NCBI RefSeq assembly: GCF_026914305.1
Contig: NZ_CP113866.1
Coordinates: forward strand, 399,501 to 463,500
Direction: 5' to 3'
DNA length: 64,000 nt
Source of the DNA: Caldicellulosiruptor acetigenus
GTDB lineage: Bacteria; Bacillota; Thermoanaerobacteria; Caldicellulosiruptorales; Caldicellulosiruptoraceae
Below the pieces are notes generated by a model, which was not told where the DNA came from, searched no databases, and saw only the letters and a program-made list of their open reading frames with translations. The translations under genes were made by a program, and so were the position numbers. Below, in pieces: positions 9,900 to 48,106 of the stretch. The first letter of the stretch is position 1. Each line of letters opens with the position of its first letter.

Positions 9900-10170
9900 G
9901 CTCCGCGTTCTCAAGCAGGGTTAGTGCAGGGATACAGGCAAAAAGACTGAAAGAAGGATTGTAAACGATTACATATGGACGTAGTAACGAAAAAACAATA
10001 CTGGCAAATGGCAGGCTGGCTTGAAAGCTCAAACACAACCTGCAGAAGTGACTAAAATCCTTGAAGATCCTGCTTTTAAACCGTGTTGCAAAACCGGAAA
10101 ATCGGGTGTATAATAAAATCAACTGGAGAACCTGTGTTGAAAATGCATCTACAGAAATGTAAAAAATAGA
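9900..10170 (+). repeat. Intergenic repeat module, copy A
   Basis: The most diverged of four related modules (A here, B 10.9 kb, C 12.4/13.8 kb, D 47.7 kb). Conserved parts are TGTAAACGATTACA (about 9960), a CAAAAGCCC-like segment (here GAAAGCTCAAAC), the TTGCAA-17-TATAAT promoter and TCTACAGAAATGTAAAAA. It occupies the gap of more than 500 bases ahead of the MazEF-like genes. Confidence 0.6.
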
Positions 10171-10279: not shown

Positions 10280-10528
10280 ATGAACAAAACCACAACAGTA
10301 AGAGTGGATATTGAAACATATGAAGGCTTAAAAAAACTTTCTCAGCAACTCAATCAACCAATGCAGAAGATAATTCAGGAAGCTCTTGCAGAGTACAAAA
10401 GAAAAGTTATACTTTCAGCAACTGCGGAAGCTTTTGCTGCTCTTAAAGAAAACAATAAGCTGTGGCAGGAAGAAATTGAAGAAAGACAGCTGTGGGAAAA
10501 CACATTGCAGGATGGGATTGAAAAATGA
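10280..10528 (+). CDS. MazE-like antitoxin (ribbon-helix-helix type)
   Basis: 82 residues beginning with a CopG/ribbon-helix-helix-like segment, TTTVRVDIETYEGLKKLS, then a long charged helix likely to bind the toxin. Its stop overlaps the toxin ATG by four bases, the classic antitoxin-toxin arrangement. It would bind its own promoter and neutralise the MazF-like partner. Confidence 0.8.
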   Translation: MNKTTTVRVDIETYEGLKKLSQQLNQPMQKIIQEALAEYKRKVILSATAEAFAALKENNKLWQEEIEERQLWENTLQDGIEK

Positions 10529-10863
10529 ACCCTACAAGAGGAGAAATATGGCTTGTAGATTTAAATCCTACACGGGGCCATGAACAGAGCGGTGTTCGAC
10601 CAGCAGTAATAATCTCTGTTGATGAGTTCAATTCATGTCCTGCTGACTTAGTGGTTGTTGTGCCAATCACAAGCAAGAACAAGAATATACCCATGCATGT
10701 AGAGATACAGCCTGAAAACAGCGGGCTTGCCAGAGTGTCGTTTGCAAAACCGGAAGATATAAGGTCAATTTCAAAAGAAAGGCTTGTAAAAAAGATAGGA
10801 CAATTACCAAAAGAAAAATTGAAAGAACTGGAGGAGAAAATAAGGATTCTGCTGGGACTGTAG
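10525..10863 (+). CDS. mazF: MazF/PemK family endoribonuclease toxin
   Basis: 112 residues. It begins with RGEIWLVDLNPTRGHEQSG, then RPAVIIS and VVVVPITSK, the complete PemK/MazF fold signature including the conserved basic and Ser/Thr active-site positions. It cleaves mRNA when free of antitoxin. Length is normal for the family and no damage is seen. Confidence 0.92.
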   Translation: MNPTRGEIWLVDLNPTRGHEQSGVRPAVIISVDEFNSCPADLVVVVPITSKNKNIPMHVEIQPENSGLARVSFAKPEDIRSISKERLVKKIGQLPKEKLKELEEKIRILLGL

Positions 10864-10883: not shown

Positions 10884-11297
10884 GTGTTCGCTATTAGAAA
10901 TGGTTGAATCCAGTTGCGAAGGATCTCGCAGATGTGCCTGTGGGAAAACTGAACAAAAAGCTCAAATCAGACACAGGGTGTATTGCAAAACCATTGATAG
11001 ACCTGAATTTGCAGGCAGCAGGCAAACCTGAGAAGGGCTTTTGAGCTGGGGTTAGAGTACCAGAGTAAGCAACAAAGTAGGGAAGGAGATTGTAAACGAT
11101 TACATAAGGATGCGACAGTAAAAGTCATACTACTGGTAAACAAAGCTGGTTCAAAAGCCCAAACAGAACCTGCGCCAGCAGTTAAAACTTGAGAATTCTA
11201 ATTTTAAATTGTATTGCAAAACCTGAAAATCGGGTGTATAATAGAAACTGTCTGAAGCAATGTGTGGAGAATACGTCTACAGAAATGTAAAAATTGA
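10884..11297 (+). repeat. Intergenic repeat module, copy B
   Basis: About 410 bp from GTTCGCTATT (about 10888) to the TCTACAGAAATG motif. It holds AAAAAGCTCAAA and GGCTTTTGAGCT arms, the palindrome-like TGTAAACGATTACA (about 11092), GGTTCAAAAGCCCAAAC, then the small-RNA promoter. Closest to copy C. It fills the whole gap between mazF and the Rpn gene. Confidence 0.75.
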
Positions 11298-11335
11298 AAC
11301 AAAGTCACAGGTCTCTCTGTGACTTTTATTTTTTG
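11249..11335 (+). ncRNA. Small RNA B (TCTACAGAAATG family)
   Basis: Promoter TTGCAA (11214-11219) - 17 - TATAAT (11237-11242). TCTACAGAAATGTAAAAATT starts at 11276. The terminator AAAGTCACAG/CTGTGACTTT with a T-run ends near 11335. Confidence 0.68.
11301..11335 (+). terminator. Terminator of small RNA B
   Basis: AAAGTCACAG, short loop, CTGTGACTTT and T-rich tail. Confidence 0.85.
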
Positions 11336-11340
11336 TGTGG

Positions 11341-11412
11341 TATAATAAAAATGTAAAGGGTAAAATTCTCCTCCCCCTGCTGGAAGTTTGCTAAAAGAGG
11401 GGGAGTTAGCGA
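11341..11412 (+). promoter_or_regulatory. Promoter and leader box of the Rpn gene
   Basis: An extended -10 (TGTGGTATAAT, TATAAT at 11341-11346) directly follows the small RNA B terminator. The leader then carries GTTTGCTAAAAG and AGTTAGC around the Shine-Dalgarno GAGGGGGAG, the two-box element that recurs throughout 48-59 kb. Confidence 0.55.
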
Positions 11413-12195
11413 ATGCGTGATAGTTTGCCACCACAGGAACATGATTCAACCTTTAAGTTCTTGTTTGAAGATCCAAAAGATATTCTCTTCCTCGTGAGAG
11501 ATGTAATAGGCTACAGCTGGGCAAAAGATATTCAAGAAGACTCAATAGAACTTGCTGACAAAGAATTTGTAGATGAGGAATTTCTACAGAAAAGAGCAGA
11601 CGTCATAGCAAAGGCAAGACTAAAAGACAGGGAAGTATACTTCTACATCTTAATTGAGAACCAGTCAACGGTAGCAGAAGACATGCCGGAAAGACTTCTA
11701 AAGTACATGATTTTGCTATGGGCCAGAAAGATAAGAGAAGGTACAGAAAAACTACCGGCAATAATCCCAATAGTCACATACAACGGGCTTGAAAAAGACT
11801 GGGATGTCCCACAGGAAATAATCAGCGAATTTGATATTTTCAAAGACGATATTTTCAGGTACGCAGTTGTCAACATTTCAAAATTGGATGCAAAGGCTCT
11901 GCTGCAAGAGGAAGAGGATATCTTGAGTCCAGTAGTGTTCTACTTAGAGCAGGCAAGAGATGATACAGAAGAGCTTGTAAAAAGACTGAAGGAGATTGTG
12001 CCAAAACTCAAGCAGTTCAGTCCTGCCACCCTGGAAAGATTTTTGATATGGGCGGGAAATGTAATTCGTCCAAGGCTTTTAAAGGAAGACAGACAGGAAT
12101 ATGACAGACTGGCAGAAAAGCTCAAGCAGGGGGAGCTGAGAAAATGGGTGAGTTTGTATCCAATGTTGCAAGACTTTTGGATGAGGTACAACTGA
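11413..12195 (+). CDS. Rpn family PD-(D/E)XK nuclease (frame broken near its end)
   Basis: Rpn recombination-promoting nuclease/transposase_31 family. The N-terminal HDSTFKFLFEDP, RADVIAKA (catalytic Asp) and YILIENQS (E-x-Q) match the PD-(D/E)XK core, roughly residues 8-90. Rpn proteins are DNA endonucleases linked to phage defence. The frame ends prematurely at 12195. The usual C-terminal segment continues in the -1 frame from the A4 run at about 12141 (see next entry). The full protein would be about 317 residues. Either a homopolymer error or a real truncation. Confidence 0.82.
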   Translation: MRDSLPPQEHDSTFKFLFEDPKDILFLVRDVIGYSWAKDIQEDSIELADKEFVDEEFLQKRADVIAKARLKDREVYFYILIENQSTVAEDMPERLLKYMILLWARKIREGTEKLPAIIPIVTYNGLEKDWDVPQEIISEFDIFKDDIFRYAVVNISKLDAKALLQEEEDILSPVVFYLEQARDDTEELVKRLKEIVPKLKQFSPATLERFLIWAGNVIRPRLLKEDRQEYDRLAEKLKQGELRKWVSLYPMLQDFWMRYN

Positions 12196-12368
12196 AAAAA
12201 TTTAATCAAGGTAAAATTGAAGGCAGAATGGAAGGCAGAATGGAAGCACAACTCGAGATAGCAAGAAATCTGATACTTGAAGGTGCAGAAGACAGTTTTA
12301 TAGCTAAAGTAACAGGACTTGATATTGAGAAAGTAAAAGAGCTTAGAAATCAGCAACAGAAACAATAG
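12144..12368 (+). CDS. C-terminal Rpn segment, possible intragenic small protein (RpnS-like)
   Basis: 74 residues with a GKIEGRMEGRMEAQLEIARN helix and VTGLDIEKVKEL end, the standard tail of Rpn proteins, in the -1 frame relative to the nuclease. ATG 12144 has its own strong Shine-Dalgarno (AGGGGGAG, about 8 bases upstream). In enterobacterial Rpn genes an internal start yields a small inhibitor of the full-length nuclease, and the same could apply here. Confidence 0.6.
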   Translation: MGEFVSNVARLLDEVQLKKFNQGKIEGRMEGRMEAQLEIARNLILEGAEDSFIAKVTGLDIEKVKELRNQQQKQ

Positions 12369-12373
12369 ATTTC

Positions 12374-12402
12374 AAGGCAGGGTTTAATCCCTGCCTTTTG
12401 TT
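12374..12402 (+). terminator. Terminator after the Rpn gene
   Basis: AAGGCAGGG/CCCTGCCTT stem followed by TTGTTTT. Confidence 0.8.
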
Positions 12403-12433
12403 TTCAGGGGCAGGGGAAAAGTATAACAAATAC

Positions 12434-12488: not shown

Positions 12489-13841
12489 AAGCTCCAACCT
12501 TTACAGGTTGGAGAGGAAGCGGGTTGATTTTTTCAATCATATGGTAAAATATACATGGTGAGTGAAAAATGAAGTTAACATTGTCCTGTAAATTCAAACT
12601 CTGGCTGTCGCAAGAACAAAAAAGAAAACTCCTAGAAACCACAAAAGCATACACTAACGCTATTAACTTTGTCTTAGCCGAAAACCTGAAAGACAAAACA
12701 ACCAACGTAAAGAAACTGCACAAACTCTACTACAAGACTATTAGAAAGAGTTTTTCTCTCCCCGCCCAGCTGGCTATTAATGTCTACCGACAGGCAGCAG
12801 ACATATACCAAACCCTGTGGTCACAATATAACAATCTACTGCACAGGGAACAAAATAGCAACACAACTAAAGAATTCTGGAATAAACCTTCAAAACGAAA
12901 AGCTTTCACGGTAAACTACACACACGGCCGTACCTTTTCCATCAAGTACGACCAGAATACAGATACCTTTTTTGTCTCCATCGCCTCCATCTATGGCAGA
13001 ATTAAAAACATTCGAATCACCGGTTGGAAACAGCACTACAACTATTTAAAACACGGCGAAATAGGTGACCCTGTACTTGTCTATGATAAACCATCCAAAG
13101 AATTCTACCTGCACATCCCAGTAACCCTGGAAGTTGACGAAAAACTGTACAAAGAGATTACCGGTATAGACGTTGGTGAGAGAAACATTGTGACGGTAGT
13201 ATCAACTGCTGGTACGAGATATACCGTACCGCTTCCTGACCAGGTTAGACGTATCAAGCATCACTATCACGAACTGCGCTCTCAGTTGATGTCAAAAGGC
13301 ACTCGCTCTGCCAGAAGAAAACTCCAAAAGGTTGGCAGAAGCGAGAAACGGTTTGTGTCTGACTTTCTGCATAAACTTACCATAGACCTTGTCAGGAAGC
13401 ATCCGGCAGCGCTGTTCGTCATGGAAGATTTGAGCATGATAAGGACAAACAGGTCAACGTACCGTGGTAGTGATGGTGAAGCACGCCGTCAAGCAGAACA
13501 ATGGCCTTTTGCCGAACTGCAGAACAAATTGGAGTACAAATCAATACTCTACAATGGAATACGCCCAGTAAAGGTTGATCCGTCCTATACTTCGTTGTCC
13601 TGTCCTGTGTGCGGACATGTATCGAAAGATAACCGTCCAGGGCATGGTGAGTTATTTAAGTGTCAGCGCTGCGGTTATGAAGAAAATGCTGACATAGTAG
13701 GTGCAACGAACATAGCGATAAGGTACCTTGTGGAAGTTCAGCAGATAAACCTGAGAGGGCTGCTTGTCAACCAGCCTAATGCTCCCTGTCCGCAAGGGCA
13801 GGTAGAGCAAGCTCCTACCTCTACAGGTAGGAGTAGTTGAC
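12489..13841 (+). mobile_element. IS200/IS605-type tnpB-only element 1
   Basis: The left end has hairpin CTCCAACCT/AGGTTGGAG (12492-12513) followed by GCGGGTTGAT. The right end has hairpin CTCCTACCT/AGGTAGGAG (13812-13833) followed by TAGTTGAC. The same end layout is seen in the second element at 42.2 kb. No tnpA is present, so transposition would need a TnpA in trans. It is inserted into repeat copy C. Confidence 0.75.
12569..13840 (+). CDS. tnpB: TnpB RNA-guided nuclease (element 1)
   Basis: 423 residues with RuvC motifs GIDVGERN (~residue 197), MEDLSMI (~288) and NADIVGATN (~374). A four-cysteine zinc ribbon CPVCGH...CQRCGY lies between the last two. All three acidic residues are present, so it should be catalytically competent. 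TnpB proteins are guided by an omega RNA overlapping the 3' end of the gene and the right end. Here the stop codon itself lies in the right-end motif TAGTTGAC. Sequence is quite different from the second TnpB. Confidence 0.9.
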   Translation: MKLTLSCKFKLWLSQEQKRKLLETTKAYTNAINFVLAENLKDKTTNVKKLHKLYYKTIRKSFSLPAQLAINVYRQAADIYQTLWSQYNNLLHREQNSNTTKEFWNKPSKRKAFTVNYTHGRTFSIKYDQNTDTFFVSIASIYGRIKNIRITGWKQHYNYLKHGEIGDPVLVYDKPSKEFYLHIPVTLEVDEKLYKEITGIDVGERNIVTVVSTAGTRYTVPLPDQVRRIKHHYHELRSQLMSKGTRSARRKLQKVGRSEKRFVSDFLHKLTIDLVRKHPAALFVMEDLSMIRTNRSTYRGSDGEARRQAEQWPFAELQNKLEYKSILYNGIRPVKVDPSYTSLSCPVCGHVSKDNRPGHGELFKCQRCGYEENADIVGATNIAIRYLVEVQQINLRGLLVNQPNAPCPQGQVEQAPTSTGRSS

Positions 13842-14220
13842 AGTCTCGCAAACGTGCCTGCGGAAAAGCTGAATCAAAAGCTCACAGCGGCTTTTGCATA
13901 TAGCGAAAAACACAGACAACTACTGGGGTTGCAGACAGTAACCAAACCCGAAAATGGCTTTTGAGCCGGGCTTAAAATGTTAGAACAGGCCATAGAGTGA
14001 AAAGGGTGATTGTAAACGTTTACACAAGGATGCGACAGAAAAAAGTCATGTCAGCTACAAAACAGCTGGTTCAAAAGCCCAAACAAGACTTATGCCAGTA
14101 GTCAGAACCCTTGTGAATTCTAACTTTAAATTGTATTGCAAAACCTAAAAATTCGATGTATAATAAAAAACAGTTAGAGAAACTGTATTTAAAACCTGTC
14201 TACAGAAATGTAAAAATAGA
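13842..14220 (+). repeat. Intergenic repeat module, copy C, right part
   Basis: Contains GGCTTTTGAGCC, TGTAAACGTTTACA (about 14011, a perfect palindrome), CAGCTGGTTCAAAAGCCC, then the small-RNA promoter and TCTACAGAAATG. Fills the gap between tnpB and the PIN gene. Confidence 0.75.
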
Positions 14221-14256
14221 AATTAGACCGCAGAAAACCTGCGGTTTTTGCTTTTT
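14171..14256 (+). ncRNA. Small RNA C (TCTACAGAAATG family)
   Basis: TTGCAA (14136-14141) - 17 - TATAAT (14159-14164). TCTACAGAAATGTAAAAATA runs 14199-14218. Terminator ACCGCAG/CTGCGGT with T-run 14227-14255. Confidence 0.68.
14227..14255 (+). terminator. Terminator of small RNA C
   Basis: ACCGCAG/CTGCGGT stem, TTTTTGCTTTTT tail. Confidence 0.85.
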
Positions 14257-14333: not shown

Positions 14334-14987
14334 TTGAGAAAACTGAGAGTATATCTGGACACCTCAGTTATCAGTCATTTGGACCAGCAGGATAATCCCG
14401 AGTATATGCAGGTAACAAAAGAATTTTGGGAGGAAGTTAAAAAGGGGAAGTATGATATATACATTTCAGATGCAGTAGCAACTGAGTTAGATGAGTGTCC
14501 AGAACCAAAGAAAAGTAAACTGTTTAAGTATCTTAATGGGATAGAGTATGAAAAAATTGTTATAGACGAGCAGGTAATGGAGCTTGCTGAGAAGTATATT
14601 GCTGAAGGAATAATTCCGGCAAAATATTCTGGTCATGCGATTCATATAGCTGCAGCAAGTGTCAAAGATTGTGAAATACTGGTATCATGGAATTTTAAGC
14701 ATATTGTAAAAGTAAAAACAATTCAGGGTGTAAACGGAATAAATAAGTTAATGGGTTATAGAGAAATCCAACTGGTATCACCGCTTATGATGTTAGAAGA
14801 AGAAGTGATTGATAGGTTTGAAACGAGTGATATGAAAGAATTACATGAGATAAGGGAGAAAATTTACGAGGAAACAAAAAATATGACACGAAAAGAATTT
14901 ATTGAGTATATTCACAAAAAGGCAGAAAAAGCTGAAGAAGAAATGAGAAAATTAAGAGAAAAAGCTAAAAAAGAAGTAATCCAATAA
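14334..14987 (+). CDS. PIN-domain ribonuclease toxin with fused antitoxin-like tail
   Basis: 217 residues from a TTG start, with GAAAGGGG upstream. Residues 1-150 are a PIN domain: LRVYLDTSVISH (first Asp), VATELDE, SGHAIHIAAASV (acidic position reduced) and EILVSWNFKHIV. From about residue 160, the segment DMKELHEIREKIYEETKNMT and a glutamate/lysine helix resemble small proteins usually encoded next to such PIN genes. The gene therefore looks like a toxin fused to its partner. No separate antitoxin gene is present. Confidence 0.75.
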   Translation: MRKLRVYLDTSVISHLDQQDNPEYMQVTKEFWEEVKKGKYDIYISDAVATELDECPEPKKSKLFKYLNGIEYEKIVIDEQVMELAEKYIAEGIIPAKYSGHAIHIAAASVKDCEILVSWNFKHIVKVKTIQGVNGINKLMGYREIQLVSPLMMLEEEVIDRFETSDMKELHEIREKIYEETKNMTRKEFIEYIHKKAEKAEEEMRKLREKAKKEVIQ

Positions 14988-47706: not shown

Positions 47707-48106
47707 GCATTCGAACTGATGTTCGCTATTTCATATTGTCTCACTGAAATAGCAGGGTTTTTGCTGGTGCGTCCACCAGAGACCTGAACCAAAAGCCCTT
47801 TGCAGGCACACGACGAGTCTTTAAAGCTTTGACATAGCTAATTTTGCAGGTAGCAGGCAAACCTGCAAAGGGCTTTCGAACCAGAGGCAGGATAAGGTAA
47901 AGAGCAAAAGGCGGGAAAGGCGTATTGTAAACGATTACATAAGATTAGGTAAGGGATTGGACCACCTGCTGAAAGGTTGCTTCCAGAGTCCAAACAAAAT
48001 TCTCACCAGTAGTTGAAAAAATTTTGTTGCAGACAAACCAAAATTGTGGTATAAATAAATTAGGTAGACGTGTAAGAAAAACACGTCTACAGAAATGTAA
48101 AAATAA
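47707..48106 (+). repeat. Intergenic repeat module, copy D
   Basis: About 390 bp from GTTCGCTATT (about 47713) to TCTACAGAAATG. It holds the arms AAAAGCCCTTTGCAGG / CCTGCAAAGGGCTTT, TGTAAACGATTACA (about 47929), a CCAAACAAAAT segment and the small-RNA promoter. Related to copies A-C 34-38 kb away. Confidence 0.7.

Follow-up and report, generated by a model that had tools for sequence, protein, structure and literature searches.

A putative internal start for RpnS in a frame-broken rpn gene of Caldicellulosiruptor acetigenus, probably disarmed with its antitoxin still translatable

Introduction

The closest described relatives of the locus studied here are the Rpn proteins of E. coli, where RpnS is translated separately and inhibits RpnL (Zhong et al. 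2023, PMC10327210, a preprint drawn on here in part). RpnA-S is abolished by changes at Lys-240, Glu-241, and Met-244 of RpnA (K240, E241, and M244), and the portions of the preprint used here also describe Rpn tails with four-residue repeats of varying number (PMC10327210). The same portions report that RpnS from an rpn gene of C. difficile is made in E. coli, as judged by a blot of the cloned gene (PMC10327210). A clostridial equivalent of RpnS is thus not new, having already been published for the C. difficile gene. In the literature searched, no paper was found that treats Caldicellulosiruptor and Rpn together, and among the papers listed one dealt with RpnS.

The locus described here lies in a stretch of 64,000 nucleotides from Caldicellulosiruptor acetigenus, referred to as the window, in a host genome that consists of one contig of 2.74 Mb and in which PF04754 is matched six times. 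In intact relatives, a single mRNA would give rise both to RpnL, consisting of the nuclease and its tail, and, from an internal Shine-Dalgarno (SD) sequence and start codon, to RpnS, the tail alone. RpnS would pair with the tail of RpnL, so that the nuclease is held off. In the window, a base lost from the internal SD would have shifted the tail into a different frame from that of the nuclease, and the possible products would be a tail-less nuclease and free RpnS. Such a locus would be a disarmed rpn gene that is still able to translate its antitoxin. Separate translation and inhibition are carried over to the window by analogy with the E. coli work of Zhong et al. Taken as a whole, we regard this explanation as probable, with some reserve.

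Results

The nuclease frame, corresponding to RpnL without its tail, occupies positions 11413–12195 of the forward strand and encodes 260 residues, of which approximately the last 20 are out-of-frame sequence. It matches PF04754 with 92.6 bits, above the curated cut-off of 21, and TIGR01784 with 43.4 bits, under the cut-off of 52.1, in a frame that lacks the tail. The residues of the acidic active site (E46, D63, E82, and Q84) are invariant in 54 sequences and are kept in the window. In the predicted structure, residues 3–159 resemble enzymes of the restriction-endonuclease fold (PD-(D/E)XK), with a modest best Z score of 8.1 over 102 residues and an rmsd of 2.9. Confidence in the model is low, with a pLDDT below 50, only at residues 1–7 and in the out-of-frame end, 241–260. 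Apart from the break, the nuclease looks undamaged.

At approximately codon 244 of this frame, an ATG (12144–12146) opens a second frame that runs to 12368 on the same strand and encodes 74 residues plus a stop codon. This putative RpnS frame is in the −1 register relative to the 260-residue frame and overlaps it by 52 bases. The ATG is preceded at a distance of 8 nucleotides by AGGGGGAG (12128–12135), for which the duplex with the anti-SD is −9.4 kcal/mol, the best among the start-type codons of the RpnS frame. The anti-SD used for this value was ACCUCCUUU, taken as background and not from the 16S of this genome. An earlier note on this DNA had claimed an ATG at 12144 with an excellent SD and a tail in the −1 frame, and the SD and open frame found here bear it out. 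The same letters, AGGGGGAG, are read at 11398–11405 as the SD of the nuclease start. A motif scan places a terminator-like hairpin at 12374–12397, directly 3′ of the RpnS stop, with 5 such sites found against 1.0 expected in the scanned region, counting both strands. A promoter-like site, with TG ahead of TATAAT, is situated at 11319–11346, one of 7 found against 3.1 expected, all by consensus match only. Downstream, the locus is adjoined by a gene for a TnpB-family RNA-guided endonuclease (12569–13840; NF040570, 202 bits).

The nuclease frame and the tail match TIGR01784 in succession, at profile positions 2–132 and 222–273 of 273, both below the cut-off. Because of these successive matches, and because relatives join the two parts in one open frame, we read them as a single gene. 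Relatives are matched by the nuclease frame through Lys-Gln-Gly and by the tail frame from Gly-Gly-Ala-Glu-Lys-Met onward. The switch implies that one base is missing within approximately 12127–12134, inside the internal SD; MAFFT sets the gap a few bases later, and the position given is approximate. A tail in the nuclease frame is absent in the window, where it lies in the −1 frame, and present in 70 intact relatives. Since nuclease and tail share a single frame in the relatives, we attribute the split to a local lesion or to an error and not to the design of the family. The earlier note had supposed that a frameshift separates the tail from the nuclease; the separation is real in this sequence, but it cannot be generalized to the single-frame relatives.

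If the frameshift were an error of sequencing or assembly, the locus would be an ordinary intact rpn in which RpnS starts internally. Intact relatives of this kind exist, the nuclease frame is otherwise undamaged, and the break falls at a run of G, a usual site for such errors. On the other hand, the rest of the window contains long open frames, of up to 1556 residues, and other copies in the genus carry different lesions that split them close to this boundary, which makes an error unlikely, although it deserves serious consideration.

The 12 genomes of the genus, together with one from a sister genus, supplied the Rpn copies, which occupy 116 distinct places. Of these, 70 hold distinct intact genes, defined by a single frame that begins no later than model position 20 and reaches at least 311, all from the genus. 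One further copy (L007) is intact but of another type, two lie at contig ends, and 43 are damaged, in a count that joins pieces up to 2600 bases apart. The nuclease part is whole in one frame in 6 of the 43 damaged copies (the window, which is L002, and L030, L116, L005, L097, and L102). Each of the six is broken ahead of the RpnS start and retains an RpnS frame. The lesions differ: the window has lost a base, and others show a frame shift close to a run of A, a stop codon, or a deletion; in L097 and L102 the lesion is 1.3–2.1 kb of other DNA. Retention in six of six would occur by chance with a probability of 0.0004 if breaks were even over model positions 210–322, an interval set post hoc and with the window itself counted among the six. 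The pattern could arise because a nuclease kept without RpnS does harm, or because mutations concentrate in the G-rich SD.

In L097 (G001:2422000–2428000) and in L161, other DNA interrupts rpn right at the G-rich internal SD, and in L097 the RpnS start and its SD survive about 2 kb downstream of the interruption. The more frequent retention of the tail than of the nuclease among damaged copies (27/43 versus 6/43) was rejected as evidence, the longer nuclease suffering more breaks. Stand-alone tails were likewise rejected as working genes: all 11 keep the start and frame, but only 5 have an SD energy of −8 or better, and several look like remnants. Split and degraded copies are excluded from the 11, as are two that carry inserted DNA, two whose nuclease is partial, and two situated at contig ends. 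Pairs of stand-alone tails gave dN/dS values of 0.12, 0.19, and 0.29, and pN/pS, when separate and split tails were pooled, was 0.25, versus 0.15 for tails in intact genes.

Ahead of the nuclease start, the leader stretch CTCCCCCTGCT (11371–11381, forward strand) forms an inverted repeat and complements the nuclease SD as well as positions 12125–12135. The 11-base complementarity between the leader and the internal SD arises largely because the two SDs are alike. At 37 °C, the nuclease SD of the window has a predicted unpaired probability of 0.04 and the internal SD one of 1.0; at 70 °C, a guessed growth temperature, the values are 0.13 and 0.81. Over 61 distinct loci, including the window and uncorrected for relatedness, the internal SD is the more open of the two in 40 at 37 °C and in 39 at 70 °C. 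The leader hairpin is not stronger than that of shuffled sequences, with a z of −0.24 and 75 of 200 shuffles folding as well.

These data bear on whether the split locus is a working two-gene form, with an active tail-less nuclease restrained by RpnS from the overlapping frame. The buried nuclease SD beside an open RpnS SD, the kept active-site residues, and the retention of RpnS in all six nuclease-keeping copies, for all its post hoc interval, would agree with such a form. We nevertheless consider it improbable, since the published model, in the part of the preprint used here, has RpnS pairing with the RpnL tail that is missing in the window, the G-rich SD is perhaps just a mutational hot spot, and the leader hairpin is unexceptional. 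A little more doubtful still is a general scheme in which rpn loci convert to two-gene toxin-antitoxin systems by a break just before the RpnS start, RpnS restraining a live tail-less nuclease through its nuclease part and the leader hairpin setting the ratio of the two through an anti-SD able to pair with either SD. Under the favored reading of a disarmed locus, the tail-less nuclease would be inactive or harmless. A tail-less nuclease whose active site is intact could be toxic, an argument against a quiet remnant.

A start codon with a strong SD, in frame and at the matching place, is present in all 70 intact genes (55 ATG, 14 GTG, and 1 TTG), where the start was the best candidate no more than six codons away from the alignment column, a choice that favors the result slightly. 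Among relatives its position ranges from residue 225 to 252 from the model start. The internal SD lies within the top 3% of in-frame positions in 70/70 genes. In 69 of them it surpasses the SDs of all other in-frame ATG codons, and in 56 it equals or exceeds the SD of the gene's own start. Its mean duplex energy is −11.25 kcal/mol, versus −8.15 kcal/mol in synonymous recodings with the codon usage of the same genes. Gene by gene, the synonymous test gives p < 0.05 in only 9 of 70, because Gly-Gly codons alone supply much of the SD. As a control for kinship, 79 contexts (the 70 from the genus and nine from other genera) were clustered. At 42% identity, the SD is stronger than the mean of its own recodings in 8 of 8 clusters, and 2 of 3000 joint simulations were as strong; with finer clustering none of 3000 reached the observed strength. 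Beyond the genus, 37 genomes of the class were searched, and a start and SD were found at the boundary in 16 of 18 loci from four other genera; the 18 comprise 17 newly fetched loci and L007, and several are near copies of one another. In L161, GGAGGT is immediately succeeded by foreign-looking DNA, and in L160 the script chose another frame, the SEGVEKM context being nonetheless present. The earlier note would have been refuted by a lack of conservation of SD and ATG in homologues, and these counts inside and outside the genus do not refute it.

The conserved SD-like DNA might instead be a by-product of a conserved Gly-rich hinge, with a structural methionine. Many members do contain Gly-Gly, and the codons for it contribute to the SD as stated above. 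However, the subfamilies LEVDEM, LGVNEM, EGVEDV, SEVMRM, and KEVEDM differ in their residues and have one DNA signal in common, and those without Gly-Gly (LEVDEM, SEVMRM, and KEVEDM) retain GGAGGTG and the start. Where the start position is a valine, its codon is GTG in 14 of 14 genes, which form a single lineage, versus 27% GTG among Val codons; a leucine occurs there once, as TTG. The clustered synonymous test also contradicts a hinge by-product, which we judge very improbable. Rather, the comparison of coding sequences argues that the internal start is not due to chance and is kept by selection. Programmed −1 frameshifting to give full-length RpnL is hardly credible: a five-G run sits where such a shift would join the frames, but no canonical slippery heptamer is apparent by reading, re-pairing of both tRNAs fails, and the 70 intact genes require no shift.

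In the tails the first helix is long and carries four-residue repeats, the number of which varies between relatives in the alignment; in the window this region, GKIEGRMEGRME, lies at 12210–12245 of the forward strand. When a profile of 56 tails was compared with the PDB, RpnA-S (7TH0) was the second match, with an E-value of 0.0015, after 8vd6 (titled CAP REPEAT; 1.8e-22). With the window tail as a single sequence, 7TH0 was not among the matches listed. The tail is modeled as three helices with a mean pLDDT of 72, and structure comparison returned TrpR-like helix-turn-helix proteins, with a best Z of 6.1 and 7TH0 not listed. PF12784 had no match in the host genome or in 14 controls and is uninformative; DUF4351 is absent among the 25 families listed of 44, PADLOC listed nothing, and scans of the genome contigs found no relatives. 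Because of the conserved SD and start, the synonymous constraint, the four-residue repeats, and the profile match to 7TH0, we identify the window tail from its sequence as RpnS, a gene-within-a-gene antitoxin of a known kind. The same lines of evidence support the clostridial equivalent of RpnS that the earlier note had envisaged.

The dN/dS of the window tail against its nearest relative is 0.54, which is high for a constrained protein and counts against the best explanation; perhaps the value is high because the tail is a mosaic. Bases 12208–12420 are 92% identical to the tails of five paralogues from other species, spread over three genomes. The nuclease parts of these five were not reported as similar DNA, and the best whole-gene matches are 77–83%. 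This pattern suggests that tails are exchanged between paralogues at the repeats.

The surroundings of the locus contain a non-coding direct repeat of approximately 200–400 bp. It occurs on the same strand at 10891–11300, 13844–14222, 9957–10165, and 47784–47943 of the window, with further copies in L171 (6800–7182, 10785–11135, and 2619–3136); the long copies are 69–77% alike. Within the repeat lies a palindrome resembling TGTAAACG[A/T]TTACA, and a promoter-like TATAAT forms its end. It is situated just upstream of an RHH/MazF pair (10280–10863), of rpn (11413), and of a gene for 217 residues (14334). Elsewhere in the genome it precedes another rpn and an Abi-like gene, the latter named by eye. 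Two paralogues of 217 residues start with MRKLRVYLDTS. The one in the window (14334–14987) has no Pfam or NCBIfam match, and the one in L171 (11273–11926) lies directly upstream of the second split rpn gene of the genome.

Discussion

The internal start at 12144 is very probably used, as judged by comparison with its homologues. Given its use, the locus is quite likely disarmed. The comparative evidence, with its control at synonymous sites, indicates that selection keeps the RpnS start in a genus distant from the enterobacteria, and the conservation extends to other genera of the class. Loci split in nature make it possible to test directly if inhibition by RpnS requires the RpnL tail, which bears on the control of these phage-defense toxins.

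As far as the parts of the preprint used here describe them, E. coli RpnA and other Rpn L/S systems resemble the window in having a PF04754 nuclease with an internal SD and start near residue 244. E. coli RpnA also resembles the window and its relatives in the four-residue repeats of varying number and in the profile match to 7TH0; its three-helix tail would have a counterpart in the three helices predicted for the window tail. Unlike RpnA, the window has its tail in a frame other than that of the nuclease and an RpnL without a tail, and its RpnS is putative. The C. difficile rpn is, like the window, a Gram-positive gene with an internal ribosome binding site and start; its RpnS was shown by blot in E. 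coli, whereas that of the window is proposed by comparison with its relatives. Separate rpnS genes, such as E. coli ypaA beside rpnE, share with the window an RpnS in a frame of its own. In contrast, ypaA is a second copy beside an rpn that has its own tail, whereas the putative RpnS of the window is the only tail and overlaps the nuclease frame by 52 bases.
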